NCBI RefSeq assembly: GCF_003633615.1
Contig: NZ_RBKU01000001.1
Span: 6,448,001-6,512,000, forward strand
DNA: 64,000 nt
Direction: 5' to 3'
Origin: Mucilaginibacter gracilis
Lineage (GTDB): Bacteria > Bacteroidota > Bacteroidia > Sphingobacteriales > Sphingobacteriaceae
Shown piece after piece: positions 2,719-58,590 of the stretch. The notes beneath the pieces are model-generated. The model was not told the origin of the DNA, did not search any database, and worked only from the letters and a program-made list of their open reading frames with translations. Made by a program: the position numbers and the translations under genes. Position 1 is the first letter of the stretch. Each line of letters opens with the position of its first letter.

Positions 2719-3978
2719 TTACAAATTTAATTCTTTGATCTTACGGTACAATGTTCTTTCGGATATTCCCAATTCCTGCGCCGCAAGTTTACGTTTACCA
2801 CGATGCTTTTTTAATGCCTTACGAATCAAATCAGATTCCTTTTCTATCAGCGACAACGATTCTTCAACTTCTTCGGCATCGTGCGTAATGTTATAATTAT
2901 CGTTGCCGTTATTATTGCTACTGCCAGTGTTATTATTGTTATGAACGGGTTGTTGCAAAGTAAATTGCGACTCGGCCTTATTTGGTAAATCAATATCGCG
3001 GTAAAGTTGATTAATTACCTGCGCATTGCCTGCATAATTGGCCGCTACACCGCCTTGTTCTATAATATCGGCAACCAGTTTTTTTAGCTCAACCATGTCG
3101 CGTTTCATATCAAAAAGCACTTTATAGAGGATGTCCCTTTCGGAGAAATCTTCTTTCGGCTGGTTTTCAATACGCATGGGCAGGTTGCGGTTGCCCATTT
3201 CGTGCGGTATATAGGTAAGCAGGGTTTGCGCGGTAATGGTGCGGTCGCGCTCAAGCACGGCCAGTTGCTCGGCTATATTTTTTAACTGCCTTACGTTGCC
3301 CGGCCACGAGTAGTTAATTAATACCTGCTGCGCAGCATCATCCAGTTGTATAGGCGGCGAGCGGTATTTGGCAGTAAAATCCGAAGTGAATTTACGGAAG
3401 ATGAGGTAAATATCTTCTTTCCTGTCTCGTAAAGGCGGTATGCGTAGTGGTACGGTATTTAAGCGGTAATATAAATCTTCTCTAAATTTGCCTGCTTTTA
3501 CGGCTTCGTAAACATCAACATTGGTTGCTGCTATTACCCGCACATTGGTTTTTTCTACTTTAGACGAACCTACCTTAATGTACTGGCCCGACTCCAGCAC
3601 GCGTAGCAAACGTGCCTGTGTACCCAGCGGCATTTCGCCAATTTCATCTAAAAATATGGTGCCGCCGTTTACGGTTTCAAAGTATCCTTTACGCTCACCA
3701 ACGGCACCGGTATAGGCTCCCTTTTCATGACCAAAAAGTTCGGAATCAATGGTGCCTTCGGGTATGGCCCCGCAGTTAACGGCTATAAAAGGCCCATGCT
3801 TACGCGGACTCATTTGGTGAATGATGTGCGAAAAAACTTCTTTACCACTACCGCTTTCACCGGTTATCAGTACCGAAATATCGGTAGGCGCAACCTGGTT
3901 AGCTATATTAATGGCCCGGTTTAACAACGGCGAACTACCGATGATACCAAAGCGTTGTTTAATTTCTTGTACTTCCAT
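2719..3978 (-). CDS. Sigma-54-dependent transcriptional activator without a receiver domain
   Basis: AAA+ activator of sigma-54 RNA polymerase. From the ATG at 3978 it has 419 residues. The AAA+ domain starts almost at once (about 10-240), with Walker A GESGSGKE, Walker B GGTIFLDEIGE, the sigma-54 contact loop as GAYTGA (Tyr for the usual Phe), and the R-finger region. An Asn-rich linker (about 340-360) leads to a Fis-type helix-turn-helix at the C-terminus (KLAAQELGISERTLYRKI). There is no N-terminal receiver, GAF or PAS domain, so the input signal is not visible. A longer reading from a TTG at 3996 would overlap the inverted repeat of the adjacent cassette and is less likely. Confidence 0.9.
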   Translation of the reverse strand: MEVQEIKQRFGIIGSSPLLNRAINIANQVAPTDISVLITGESGSGKEVFSHIIHQMSPRKHGPFIAVNCGAIPEGTIDSELFGHEKGAYTGAVGERKGYFETVNGGTIFLDEIGEMPLGTQARLLRVLESGQYIKVGSSKVEKTNVRVIAATNVDVYEAVKAGKFREDLYYRLNTVPLRIPPLRDRKEDIYLIFRKFTSDFTAKYRSPPIQLDDAAQQVLINYSWPGNVRQLKNIAEQLAVLERDRTITAQTLLTYIPHEMGNRNLPMRIENQPKEDFSERDILYKVLFDMKRDMVELKKLVADIIEQGGVAANYAGNAQVINQLYRDIDLPNKAESQFTLQQPVHNNNNTGSSNNNGNDNYNITHDAEEVEESLSLIEKESDLIRKALKKHRGKRKLAAQELGISERTLYRKIKELNL

Positions 3979-3988
3979 TGTTTTAAAT

Positions 3989-4419
3989 AGACTCAAGAAT
4001 CAAGATGCAAGAATTAAGACTTACCGTCATTACCAAGAATATATTCCCTGAAAGCAAATATCATTCTTTGGACTTCTGCAACCAATTCTAAACACTGGTT
4101 CAATTTTTTCTTTATCGCCATACGTGCGCCTTTCACAAATCAACAACTGGGTTTCAGCTTCATATGAAGATGATAATGCCGTTGATAAAAATTCCGCAAA
4201 ATGTACGTTTGTTCTTTTTCCGGAACCTTCAGCAATATTTGAAGGTACCGAGCACGAACACCTATTTATTTGATCTATAAGATTATATCTTTCTTCAGTA
4301 GGCAAGCCTTTACAATAATCATAAGTTAAATCAGTGAAGTCCATAGCCTTCTCCCATATTTTTAGGTTCTTGAAGTTATGCCTCTTCATCTTAATTCTTG
4401 GTTCTTGATTCTTGAGTCT
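3989..4419. mobile_element. Inverted-repeat-bounded four-helix-bundle cassette
   Basis: Two 31-bp arms, 3989-4019 and 4389-4419, are inverted copies of each other with only two mismatches. Each is built from the unit CAAGAATCAAGA followed by CAAGAATTAAGA. One arm begins at the first base of the four-helix gene's start codon and the other covers its frameshift-corrected stop, so the pair encloses exactly one small gene. The cassette lies between the miaB stop and the sigma-54 activator start, inside an otherwise tight operon. The exact bounding implies that gene and repeats move as a unit. No transposase is present and no target duplication is obvious. Confidence 0.65.
4014..4389 (-). pseudogene. 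Four-helix-bundle protein (23S rRNA IVS / S23 type), frameshifted
   Basis: The N-terminal 90 residues match the four-helix-bundle family first seen in 23S rRNA intervening sequences: KNLKIWEKAMDF, then SVPSNIAEGSGKR, then FLSTALSSSYEAETQLL. After the run GAAAAAA near 4105-4111 the frame gives a nonsense tail that stops at 4030. Removing one A restores the family C-terminus (NQCLELVAEVQRMIFAFRE and a short tail), ending with a stop at 4014. The gene therefore carries a one-base insertion in a homopolymer, or a sequencing error there, or a slippery site. The biochemical role of the family is unknown. Confidence 0.8.
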
Positions 4420-4425
4420 TCTTAC

Positions 4426-5916
4426 CTAATCAACTATATGTCCCATTAATGTTGCCGTAGTGCATCTTTCCGCAATTACGTTAACATATTGGCCCGGTTT
4501 AAACCTTTCGTCAACCGGGAAAATAACCATAGCGTTTTGATCGCTGCGGCCACAATAATCCTGGTTTGATTTTTTGGAGAAACCTTCAATAAGCACCTTT
4601 TGCACCTTGCCAAGCTGCGCTTGTAATCGAACAAGCGAATACTGTTGTTGTTTGGCCACAATTTCTTGCAGGCGCGTTTTTTTAACATCCTCGGGTATGT
4701 CGTCGGCAAAACGTTTGGCGGCTAATGTACCGGGGCGCTCGGAGTACATAAACATGTAGGCAAAATCGTACTTTACGTAATCCATCATACTTACCGTGTC
4801 CTGGTGCTCTTCCTCGGTTTCGGTGCAGAAACCTGTAATTACATCGGTTGATATTGCGCATTCCGGAATAATGCGGCGGATAGCGTCTATCCGGTCAATA
4901 TACCACTCACGGGTGTACGTGCGGTTCATAATGTCCAACACGCGGCTATTGCCCGATTGTACCGGCAAATGGATATAGTTACAAATATTATCGTATTTGG
5001 CTATGGTGTAAAGCACCTCGTCGGTAATATCCTTAGGGTGCGACGTTGAAAAGCGAACACGCAAATCGGGATTAATGAGAGCAACCATTTCAAGCAATCC
5101 GGCAAAGTTAACCGTAGCCTCACCTAAATCCTCTCCAAAGGAGAGGACTTTTTGATTATCCTCTTCGGCTCCCTCTCCTTTAGAGAGGGCGGGGTGAGGC
5201 TTTGTCCATTTGTACGAATCCACATTTTGCCCAAGCAACGTTACCTCGCGGTAGCCCTGGTTAAATAAATCGGTACACTCGGCAACTATTGATACGGCAT
5301 CGCGGCTGCGTTCGCGGCCACGGGTAAAAGGCACCACGCAAAACGAGCACATGTTATCGCAACCACGCATAATAGATACAAATGCGTTTATGCCATTGCT
5401 GTTTAAACGCACCGGGCTTATATCGGCATAAGTTTCCTCGCGCGATAGCAATACGTTTACGGCACGCTGCCCGCTATCAACCTGGTCTATCAAATTAGGC
5501 AAATCGCGATAGGCATCGGGGCCAACCACAACATCAACCAGTTTTTCTTCTTCTAAAAATTTGGCTTTTAAGCGCTCGGCCATGCAGCCCAGCACACCAA
5601 CCACCATTCCGGGGTTTTTCCTTTTTGCGCCTTTAAACTCTTTTAGGCGGTTACGCACGCGCTGCTCGGCATTTTCGCGAATGGAGCAGGTATTGATAAA
5701 AACTACATCGGCATTATTAAAATCGGTAGTGGTTTCAAAACCTTTCTCAAGCAATATCGAAGCAACTATCTCACTATCCGAAAAATTCATAGCGCAGCCA
5801 TAGCTTTCAATGTAAAGCTTGCGTCCGTTATTTTTTTGCGGCAGCGTTTCCAGCATTAAAGCCTCTCCCTGTCTTTCCTCGTCGTGTGTTTTGGCCTGTA
5901 ATTCCAGATCTATCAT
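4426..5916 (-). CDS. miaB: tRNA-2-methylthio-N6-dimethylallyladenosine synthase MiaB
   Basis: Radical-SAM enzyme that adds the methylthio group to i6A37 in tRNA. 496 residues: the N-terminal UPF0004 domain has the three auxiliary cluster cysteines (Cys41 in SYGCAMN, Cys77 in [11 protein letters not shown], Cys111 in VLGCMAERL). The radical-SAM triad CxxxCxxC is Cys186/190/193 ([14 protein letters not shown]), and a TRAM domain ends the protein (about 430-496). Unusually, residues 239-267 are encoded by an 84-bp palindromic repeat element inserted in frame between [11 protein letters not shown] and the next conserved block ([11 protein letters not shown]). All catalytic residues are intact. 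It is the first gene of the minus-strand operon. Confidence 0.95.
5116..5201. repeat. 84-86 bp palindromic repeat element inside miaB
   Basis: The outer ends are perfect inverted 9-mers, AGCCTCACC and GGTGAGGCT. Inside are two hairpins: CCTCTCC-AAA-GGAGAGG near 5130-5145 and CCCTCTC-CTTTA-GAGAGGG near 5171-5188. Between the outer 8-mers the element is 84 bp, exactly 28 codons, and it adds no stop codon to miaB. The design resembles dispersed palindromic elements that tolerate insertion in coding DNA, such as the Rickettsia palindromic element. I see no second copy in this window. Confidence 0.8.
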
Positions 5917-54839: not shown

Positions 54840-55815
54840 ACCCGTAGTGCATTATCAGACTAAATTTATTTTAATGTGATTCATGTTCCTTTTAAAGATA
54901 AATTTGTTGAGGTATTGAATGGTGGTCAGGGCAGTTATTTTACTTAACGTCCTTGTCTTAAACCCCTCAAAAGTTTTGGCATAATTTCTTCTGATCATAA
55001 ACTGATCGCACAGTTGCGAAAATAGCGTTTCAATCCTTTTCCTTGATTTTTTGAATAGGTATGGATACGGTTTGAATTTCTTTTGATTGTTTCTCATCGG
55101 GGTTTCCAATCTAATGTTTACAGATTCAAAAAGATTGACCTGTACCTCTGCGGACAAATAGCCTTTGTCTCCAAGTAGCACGCAATCAGTCATTTGTTGT
55201 TGTATATCTTTCAGGTAATGTATGTCATGTACGGAAGCAGGGCTTAGGTCAAAGTTCTCAAAAACACCATCTACTGAACAAACTGCATGCAGTTTGTATC
55301 CATAATACCTCGAACTTTGCGCAGCACAAAAACCATGGTTTGGAAAAGCGTATTCCTGTTCTTTGCAGATTTTACTTCTTGCTGCACGGGCATTTTTACA
55401 TACCTCTAAAGGCATTGAATCGACAATGAAACAGTCCTGGACAGCGTTCAGTTTCTGAACAAGCTTTTTTCTCACCTCATTTATGTGCGGGAACAATTTT
55501 CTTTTTCTCTTATTGTAAACACTTCGTTCGATCAAGATATCAAGCGGGGTACCTTTCAGGTTTCTAAATAACTGATATTCAGAATCTATTCCACAATATT
55601 CAGCGGTCAAATTTAACGTAATTAACTCTAAATCAGACAGTCTTGGCCTTACTGGTTTGTAATAAAAGTCCTCTTTTATTGACAGTTTCCTAAACTCTTC
55701 TAAAATAAAAGTGTAATTTTGAATCAAGTTGTTCATGTTTGTAATTGATTGTCAGTCAATACAATATACCATTTATTGGCGAAATGAACAACTTTCTTTA
55801 TAATGCACTACGGGT
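54840..55815. mobile_element. IS982-family insertion sequence, complete
   Basis: A 976-bp element with perfect 16-bp terminal inverted repeats ACCCGTAGTGCATTAT (54840-54855 and, inverted, 55800-55815). It is flanked by a 6-bp direct repeat TAATTA (54834-54839 and 55816-55821), the expected target duplication. It carries a single intact transposase gene. The intact repeats and ORF suggest a recent insertion. It sits 16 bases before the UPF0175-like start codon, cutting that gene from its upstream region. Confidence 0.92.
54855..55736 (-). CDS. IS982-family transposase
   Basis: 293 residues. The DDE triad is visible as Asp in CFIVDSMPLEVCKN (about 105), Asp in VLLGDKGYLSAEVQ (about 195) and Glu in RKRIETLFSQL (about 238), with the conserved GFCAAQSSRYYGYKLHAV between. 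The stop codon lies inside the left terminal repeat, as often in this family. Intact and probably active. Confidence 0.93.
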   Translation of the reverse strand: MNNLIQNYTFILEEFRKLSIKEDFYYKPVRPRLSDLELITLNLTAEYCGIDSEYQLFRNLKGTPLDILIERSVYNKRKRKLFPHINEVRKKLVQKLNAVQDCFIVDSMPLEVCKNARAARSKICKEQEYAFPNHGFCAAQSSRYYGYKLHAVCSVDGVFENFDLSPASVHDIHYLKDIQQQMTDCVLLGDKGYLSAEVQVNLFESVNIRLETPMRNNQKKFKPYPYLFKKSRKRIETLFSQLCDQFMIRRNYAKTFEGFKTRTLSKITALTTIQYLNKFIFKRNMNHIKINLV

Positions 55816-58428: not shown

Positions 58429-58434
58429 TATTAC

Positions 58435-58580
58435 AATGATTGAATGATTGAATGACTGAATGATTGAGTGTTTTAATTGCGGTTATTACAAGTTATTTTA
58501 ATTTATTCAATCACTGTTATTTTGAACCATTTATTCACTCACCTTATTCAATCACTCAGTCATTCAATCCTTCAATCATT
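58435..58580. repeat. Inverted repeat of GATTGAAT units between greA and the HIT gene
   Basis: The left arm at 58435-58470 is built of GATTGAAT, GATTGAAT, GACTGAAT, GATTGAGT. The right arm at 58547-58580 is its inverted copy with about three mismatches over 33 bases. The centre of about 75 bases is AT-rich and non-coding. The layout matches that of the four-helix-bundle cassette at 3989-4419 (octamer-like repeated units in inverted arms), but without a gene. Confidence 0.6.
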
Positions 58581-58590
58581 ATAAACTCCC

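Follow-up and report, generated by a model that had tools for sequence, protein, structure and literature searches.

The window, a stretch of 64,000 nucleotides of the Mucilaginibacter gracilis genome (positions 6448001-6512000), has on its minus strand the gene order miaB, IVP and sigma-54 activator. The upstream operon neighbour miaB (4426..5916) has its stop codon immediately before a 5' arm (4389..4424, minus strand), which in gene sense is an array of the 7-nt units AAGACTC, AAGAATC, AAGAACC and AAGAATT with a closing AAGA. The ATG of the IVP (S23, four-helix-bundle) gene (4030..4389) directly adjoins this arm, and the 3' arm (3984..4019, minus strand), an inverted array of the same unit, stops 5 nt before the ATG (at 3978) of the ntrC-like gene for a sigma-54-dependent activator (2719..3978), the downstream operon neighbour. 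An extra A in the site AAAGAAAAAATTG (about 4101..4113, minus strand; six A in place of the five of the orthologs) causes a +1 frameshift close to the 3' end of the IVP gene and puts the C-terminus out of frame, and the frame-corrected stop codon TAA, read from the sequence, lies at 4014..4016 within the 3' arm. The extended arms are 36 nt long, 89% complementary and separated by 369 nt, and the IVP gene alone was found between them, without a transposase.

The first-pass annotation had described a 31-bp inverted repeat extending from the start codon to the frameshift-corrected stop of a small gene in an operon running from miaB to the activator, with no transposase present. This description is borne out, with arms at 3989-4019 and 4389-4419 that differ at 2 of 31 positions; it did not recognize the 7-nt unit of which the arms are built, nor how general the arrangement is. 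The arm score of the window IVP is 27 and the median of control genes about 10, so the arms are not a chance occurrence. The full 32-nt arm occurs only once in the genome with up to 3 mismatches allowed, and its 7-nt unit (CAAGAAT-like) is found at dozens of further places. An Rfam search of the window gave no match.

Other repeat features were observed in the window. Within miaB, an in-frame palindromic insertion (5130-5188, peptide about PALSKGEG...) is present in some relatives and not in others, a layout like that of the Rickettsia palindromic elements. An insertion sequence, complete and with AACCCGTAGTGCATTAT ends, occupies about 54840-55815; its transposase was seen at four additional sites of the 1.2 Mb sampled.

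The IVP protein

The window IVP matches the profiles PF05635 (E 4e-29) and TIGR02436 (E 5e-26) with scores well above the curated cut-offs (101 bits against 33.8 and 91 against 24, respectively). The AlphaFold model of an ortholog (pLDDT 94) adopts the four-helix fold, with TM-scores of 0.89 to 2gsc and 0.77 to 2rld, PDB entries of five chains each, followed by matches to Avd 4dwl (TM 0.77/0.85) and to the Avd chains in the reverse transcriptase (RT) complexes 8ube and 8ub7 of diversity-generating retroelements (DGRs). Profile and structure searches found no catalytic domain in the protein, and a search of a phage collection for IVP returned no match. IVP/S23 proteins are known chiefly as ORFs within rRNA intervening sequences (IVS), and to our knowledge no function is known for them.

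Occupants of the miaB-ntrC junction

In total, 61 Mucilaginibacter genomes were searched and the miaB end was found in 59, of which 26 bear an armed IVP ortholog at the miaB-ntrC junction and two more a pseudogene. All 28 occupants carry AAGAATC-type arrays whose details drift. The other 31 junctions mostly hold different inverted-repeat elements, with units that are C-rich CCCCCTAAAGGGGG, GTTGATTGAG, TGTGCAAA, AATTTGAA or GTATTGCG; two of them retain one arm alone, apparently as relics, and two have no such repeat. As armed orthologs are this widespread at the junction (28/59), the window copy is regarded as an old resident that has largely been inherited vertically. The proposal of a mobile cassette stands in part: gene and arms make up a unit with no transposase gene, the 7-nt arm unit is dispersed and the site is empty or differently filled elsewhere, but the window copy is an old, decaying resident and not a fresh insertion. 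Neither an arm sequence confined to this locus nor a sister IVP at the junction without arms, the two outcomes that the first-pass annotation had named as contradicting it, was encountered.

The miaB-ntrC IVP was also found in Pedobacter arcticus and in metagenome-assembled genomes (MAGs) labelled Bacteroidia, Chitinophaga and Flavobacteriales. Between the Bacteroidia MAG and Mucilaginibacter, the mean IVP identity of 73% equals the within-genus value, whereas the neighbours are far more distant (MiaB 65% against 82% within the genus, NtrC 63% against 89%), which suggests horizontal arrival of the IVP at this junction, with a difference in rates as the possible alternative.

In congeners, hairpins of C-rich sequence (CCCCCTAACCCCCTAAAGGGGG) occupy numerous operon junctions from stop to start, at sites that hold IVP elements elsewhere. 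No accompanying gene was seen for these hairpins at L071, L076-L082, L087-L091, L094, L096 and L100 or at the trp junctions L288-L311.

Generality of the gene-in-arms layout

PF05635 was found in 116 of 148 Bacteroidota genomes and in none of 14 control genomes. A survey of Mucilaginibacter and other Bacteroidota families gathered 139 distinct IVP genes, with an enclosing inverted repeat defined by a score of at least 14; ORFs were called simply and the gene mappings depend on those calls. Inverted arms enclose 118 of the 139 genes (85%), a count of related and hence not independent orthologs, compared with 33 of 955 genes of the M. gracilis genome (3.5%), and these 33 include two IVPs and five copies of one IS transposase. 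The arm autocorrelation peaks at lags 7 and 14 alone (0.63 and 0.62, against 0.30 in shuffled arms), and period 7 is present in 109 of the 118 enclosing arm pairs. Other IVP genes of the genus are enclosed by the units AGTATCA, TTTGAGA, GTATTGC, GTTCATA, AGTCCAT, AAAGTTG, AAAGGTA, AAAGCTG and more.

The inverted-arm architecture is shared by eight plasmid-borne IVPs from Cyanobacteria and Gemmatimonadota, seven with arms scoring far above shuffled controls and the eighth just over the top shuffle. Most of the eight are located at operon junctions, among them cas6-IVP-cas4 and cas10-IVP-cmr3. The package of gene and arrays is thus found in three phyla at tight gene junctions. The cyanobacterial plasmid elements inside CRISPR-Cas operons (L338, L340 and L342, at cas6-cas4 and cas10-cmr3) may account for reports tying the protein family to CRISPR loci.

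This layout was also observed for another family of small proteins, encoded by the GxxExxY genes (TIGR04256/PF13366, PD-(D/E)XK nuclease superfamily). Nearly every Mucilaginibacter locus tested (L274:14205-14831, at about 5786 kb of the M. gracilis genome, and L350-L379) has the gene between inverted arms of GAATT/GATT units with a period of about 9, in many cases with an outer end resembling TTGTCTGAACCGGAATT. A protein resembling a RAYT-type Y1 transposase, judged by eye alone, is flanked by strong inverted repeats at L254:7568-8259.

Hairpins without an IVP gene

In 1.26 Mb sampled from the M. gracilis genome, 23 period-7 inverted repeats were detected and three of them enclose an IVP; the proposal of the first-pass annotation is not supported in this respect, as most dispersed arm pairs have no IVP gene between them. 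A few of the IVP-less repeats may be ordinary terminators. Seven of the 23 lie between divergent or convergent genes and 14 between tandem genes, a distribution similar to that of all gene pairs.

The occurrence of arrays is associated with that of the matching IVP. More than two AGTATCA arrays were counted in 16 of 17 genomes with the matching IVP clade and in 12 of 44 without it (p=2e-6). For AAGAATC arrays the counts were 19 of 26 genomes with the matching IVP and 12 of 35 without (p=0.004). Both p-values are optimistic because the genomes are related. Matching hairpins were found also in genomes where no matching IVP was detected.

Units of period 8 (AATGATTG, also ATGTGCAA) constitute another hairpin family in the genome. 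At 58431-58584 of the window, an inverted repeat of 8-nt units (AATGATTG) with an 80-nt loop fills the gap between two tandem genes.

Linkage of gene and unit, and evidence for movement

The heptad profile of the arms tracks the identity of the enclosed IVP, different sites included (0 of 1000 permutations). The mean distance of unit profiles is 0.22 for IVP pairs of at least 60% identity and 0.44 for unrelated pairs, and the unit type changes 19 times on the IVP tree, compared with 60 times in shuffles. These relations support joint movement of the IVP gene and its arms.

The junctions of fadA-fadE and trpE-trpG exhibit different states in different genomes. At fadA-fadE, one relative is empty, one carries an IVP-less GTATTGCG hairpin, M. 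gracilis and another genome carry an IVP in GTATTGCG arms, and one carries an IVP of a different clade in other arms. At trpE-trpG, an AGTATCA element is present in M. gracilis and 29 relatives have no IVP. The short intergenic sequences of the empty sites are too divergent to delimit a target-site duplication, and no near-identical element copies at two sites were found among the surveyed IVP elements. Two Calothrix NIES-22 plasmids with the same IVP were considered as a case of transposition and set aside because the flanking genes are also common to both. The IVP clades counted occupy 5, 3, 1 and 2 distinct sites, and movement is judged rare since most clades occupy merely 1-5 of them; on this evidence, which is that of genome comparison, it appears rare but real.

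Position, orientation and the recognized feature

Of 135 IVP genes, 128 (95%; 88 of 95 without the miaB set) point in the direction of both neighbours, compared with 492 of 922 (53%) for any gene. The 5' arm begins a median of 1 nt past the upstream stop, the 3' arm ends a median of 5 nt ahead of the downstream start, and element length ranges from about 424 to 552 bp between the 10th and 90th percentiles. As the elements fit from stop to start and follow the direction of their neighbours, the IVP gene is probably expressed by readthrough transcription.

Two aspects of the arms bear on what is recognized. Across the miaB set, the AAGA core of the unit is almost invariant and the remaining unit positions are variable, and at these variable positions the agreement of an arm with its own partner is barely above that with swapped arms. 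Of 119 arms, 117 have a G-rich inward-reading strand, and by lineage the figure is 27 of 28. Together with the pairing data given below, the core and the G-rich strand make it more likely that the unit itself is recognized, and the simplest candidate for this role is the IVP protein whose gene lies between the arms; the co-variation of protein clade and unit points to this protein as the putative arm binder.

The strongest competitor, to which somewhat less than an even chance is given, is an RNA-level element resembling the IVS. The arms would pair in the polycistronic mRNA as a stem of ~30 bp, RNase III would cut it and release the IVP ORF, the base of the stem would keep stop and start adjacent, the IVP protein would bind RNA, and selection would keep the arms for pairing. 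The anatomy is indeed that of the Coxiella 23S IVS (PMC4990558), the elements stand in sense orientation within operons with arms flush with stop and start codons, the predicted RNA fold has z = -5.7 with the arms paired, and the protein is folded like Avd, which belongs to a ribonucleoprotein structure of DGRs. Whole-arm pairing scores were higher for own than for swapped arms in two of three sets, but this advantage is absent in the third. Selection on RNA pairing is likewise not clearly visible in the arm mismatches, as G-U (124) and A-C (137) are about equal beside 342 transversions, so that the wobble asymmetry sought as a signature of RNA pairing was rejected; simple pairing selection as the chief constraint finds little support at the variable unit positions. 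The occurrence of IVP-less hairpins between divergent or convergent genes as well (7 of 23 period-7 repeats) also speaks against this reading.

An unlikely alternative regards the arrays as a mutational by-product, in which 7-nt tandem repeats spread by slippage and by template switching at quasi-palindromes and the IVP is merely tolerant of them. The arms of one element do share irregular spacings (e.g. L011 and L012), as correction by template switching would give, and array length is variable. The enclosure of IVP genes far beyond that of genes in general, a period fixed at 7 across phyla and the link between unit and IVP clade would not be expected from such a process.

A static operon feature, with the IVP as an ordinary host gene and regulatory or terminator-like hairpins unrelated to movement, is less probable again and already largely contradicted. 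The long residence of the window copy and several clades at one site and the presence of some other repeat hairpin at most miaB-ntrC junctions without an IVP would suit it, whereas the pairing of gene and arms with clade-specific units recurs at unrelated sites, one and the same junction is seen empty, with a mini-element or with different types, and the IVP is missing from the junction in many relatives and decays by frameshift or deletion. The least probable is retromobility dependent on reverse transcriptase, in which the IVP, like the Avd that its AlphaFold model matches (4dwl and the Avd chains of 8ube and 8ub7), would bring the element RNA to a resident RT, a route by analogy with Avd that is weakened by the lack of an RVT_1 match in 27 of 61 Mucilaginibacter genomes, including the copy-rich G022 and G020 with 173 and 77 AGTATCA array copies.

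Proposed explanation

The reading preferred here, with a probability of about 0.66, is that the window feature is a copy of a widespread small mobile element, in which a promoterless IVP gene without a transposase is placed in 7-nt arrays and encodes a four-helix protein that recognizes them. The element would comprise about 420-550 bp, with the IVP/S23 gene between two inverted arrays of ~7-nt units and expressed through readthrough transcription of the host. The pentameric four-helix protein would recognize the arrays, through their conserved core (e.g. AAGA), as belonging to its own element and recruit host enzymes that excise or copy it. By analogy with the action that RAYTs are thought to have on REPINs, it might also act in trans on IVP-less copies. 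The window copy would be an old, frameshifted occupant of the miaB-ntrC junction.

A wider claim is put forward tentatively, at rather less than even odds for all its parts together: that the element inserts between stop and start codons of operons and spreads copies lacking an IVP by action in trans, that many heptameric intergenic repeats of Bacteroidota and Cyanobacteria derive from it, that the rRNA IVS is a special case of it, and that the GxxExxY genes in arms of GAATT units form a parallel class. The literature covered, which excluded preprints and most subscription papers, yielded the Coxiella IVS paper (PMC4990558) but no account of IVP genes enclosed by repeat arms at places other than rRNA.

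When the IVP/S23 family is viewed as the gene component of dispersed elements whose terminal arrays are self-matching, it acquires a testable job, array recognition, and the heptameric intergenic repeats acquire a candidate origin. Because protein clade and unit sequence change together, many natural protein-target pairs are available for study, and the question is raised of how the element moves without a known recombinase or reverse transcriptase.

Comparison with known systems

The window element shares terminal inverted repeats with MITEs and insertion sequences, and the IVP elements also have non-autonomous, internally deleted copies like theirs, but no transposase and no fixed terminal sequence. 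The modelled fold of the IVP is that of Avd of DGRs (4dwl, TM about 0.8); unlike Avd, it is not linked to a reverse transcriptase, a template or a variable repeat, with neither a reverse transcriptase nor TR/VR repeats between or beside the window arms, and many carrier genomes are RT-free.

The cyanobacterial STRRs and the TAACTGA repeats resemble the arrays as tandem 7-nt intergenic units of sporadic occurrence, present in Cyanobacteria and also in some Bacteroidetes (PMC4679880). They differ in being described as direct repeats, and S23, 23S and four helix do not occur in the paper on the TAACTGA repeats of Beggiatoaceae (PMC4679880). A derivation of STRRs from IVP elements is only suggested by this likeness.

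RAYT is a Y1 (HUH) transposase, and the only partner gene of the window arms is PF05635. REPIN-RAYT systems (REPINs, PMC3116915) and the IVP elements both combine few gene copies with many short intergenic palindromic elements of matching sequence in one genome. The proteins are unrelated, the IVP being a small four-helix bundle in which no catalytic residues are known, and its partners are 7-nt arrays instead of REP palindromes.

Among known systems, the 23S rRNA IVS with an S23p ORF comes closest. That of Coxiella burnetii has 444 nt, a 28-bp terminal stem and the S23p ORF in the loop, and is cut by RNase III in vitro (PMC4990558). The IVP elements have in common with the 23S IVS the protein family, a length of about 430-450 nt, complementary termini of ~30 bp, which at the window element also enclose an S23 ORF in the loop, the sense orientation in a transcribed unit and the suspicion of being a selfish element. 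In contrast to the 23S IVS, they lie between protein genes of operons, as the window IVP does between miaB and the ntrC-like gene and not in a 23S rRNA gene, their termini are clade-specific arrays of 7-nt units, and they are accompanied by many IVP-less derivatives; there is a real chance that the IVP elements in arms outside rRNA constitute a class separate from the 23S rRNA IVS.
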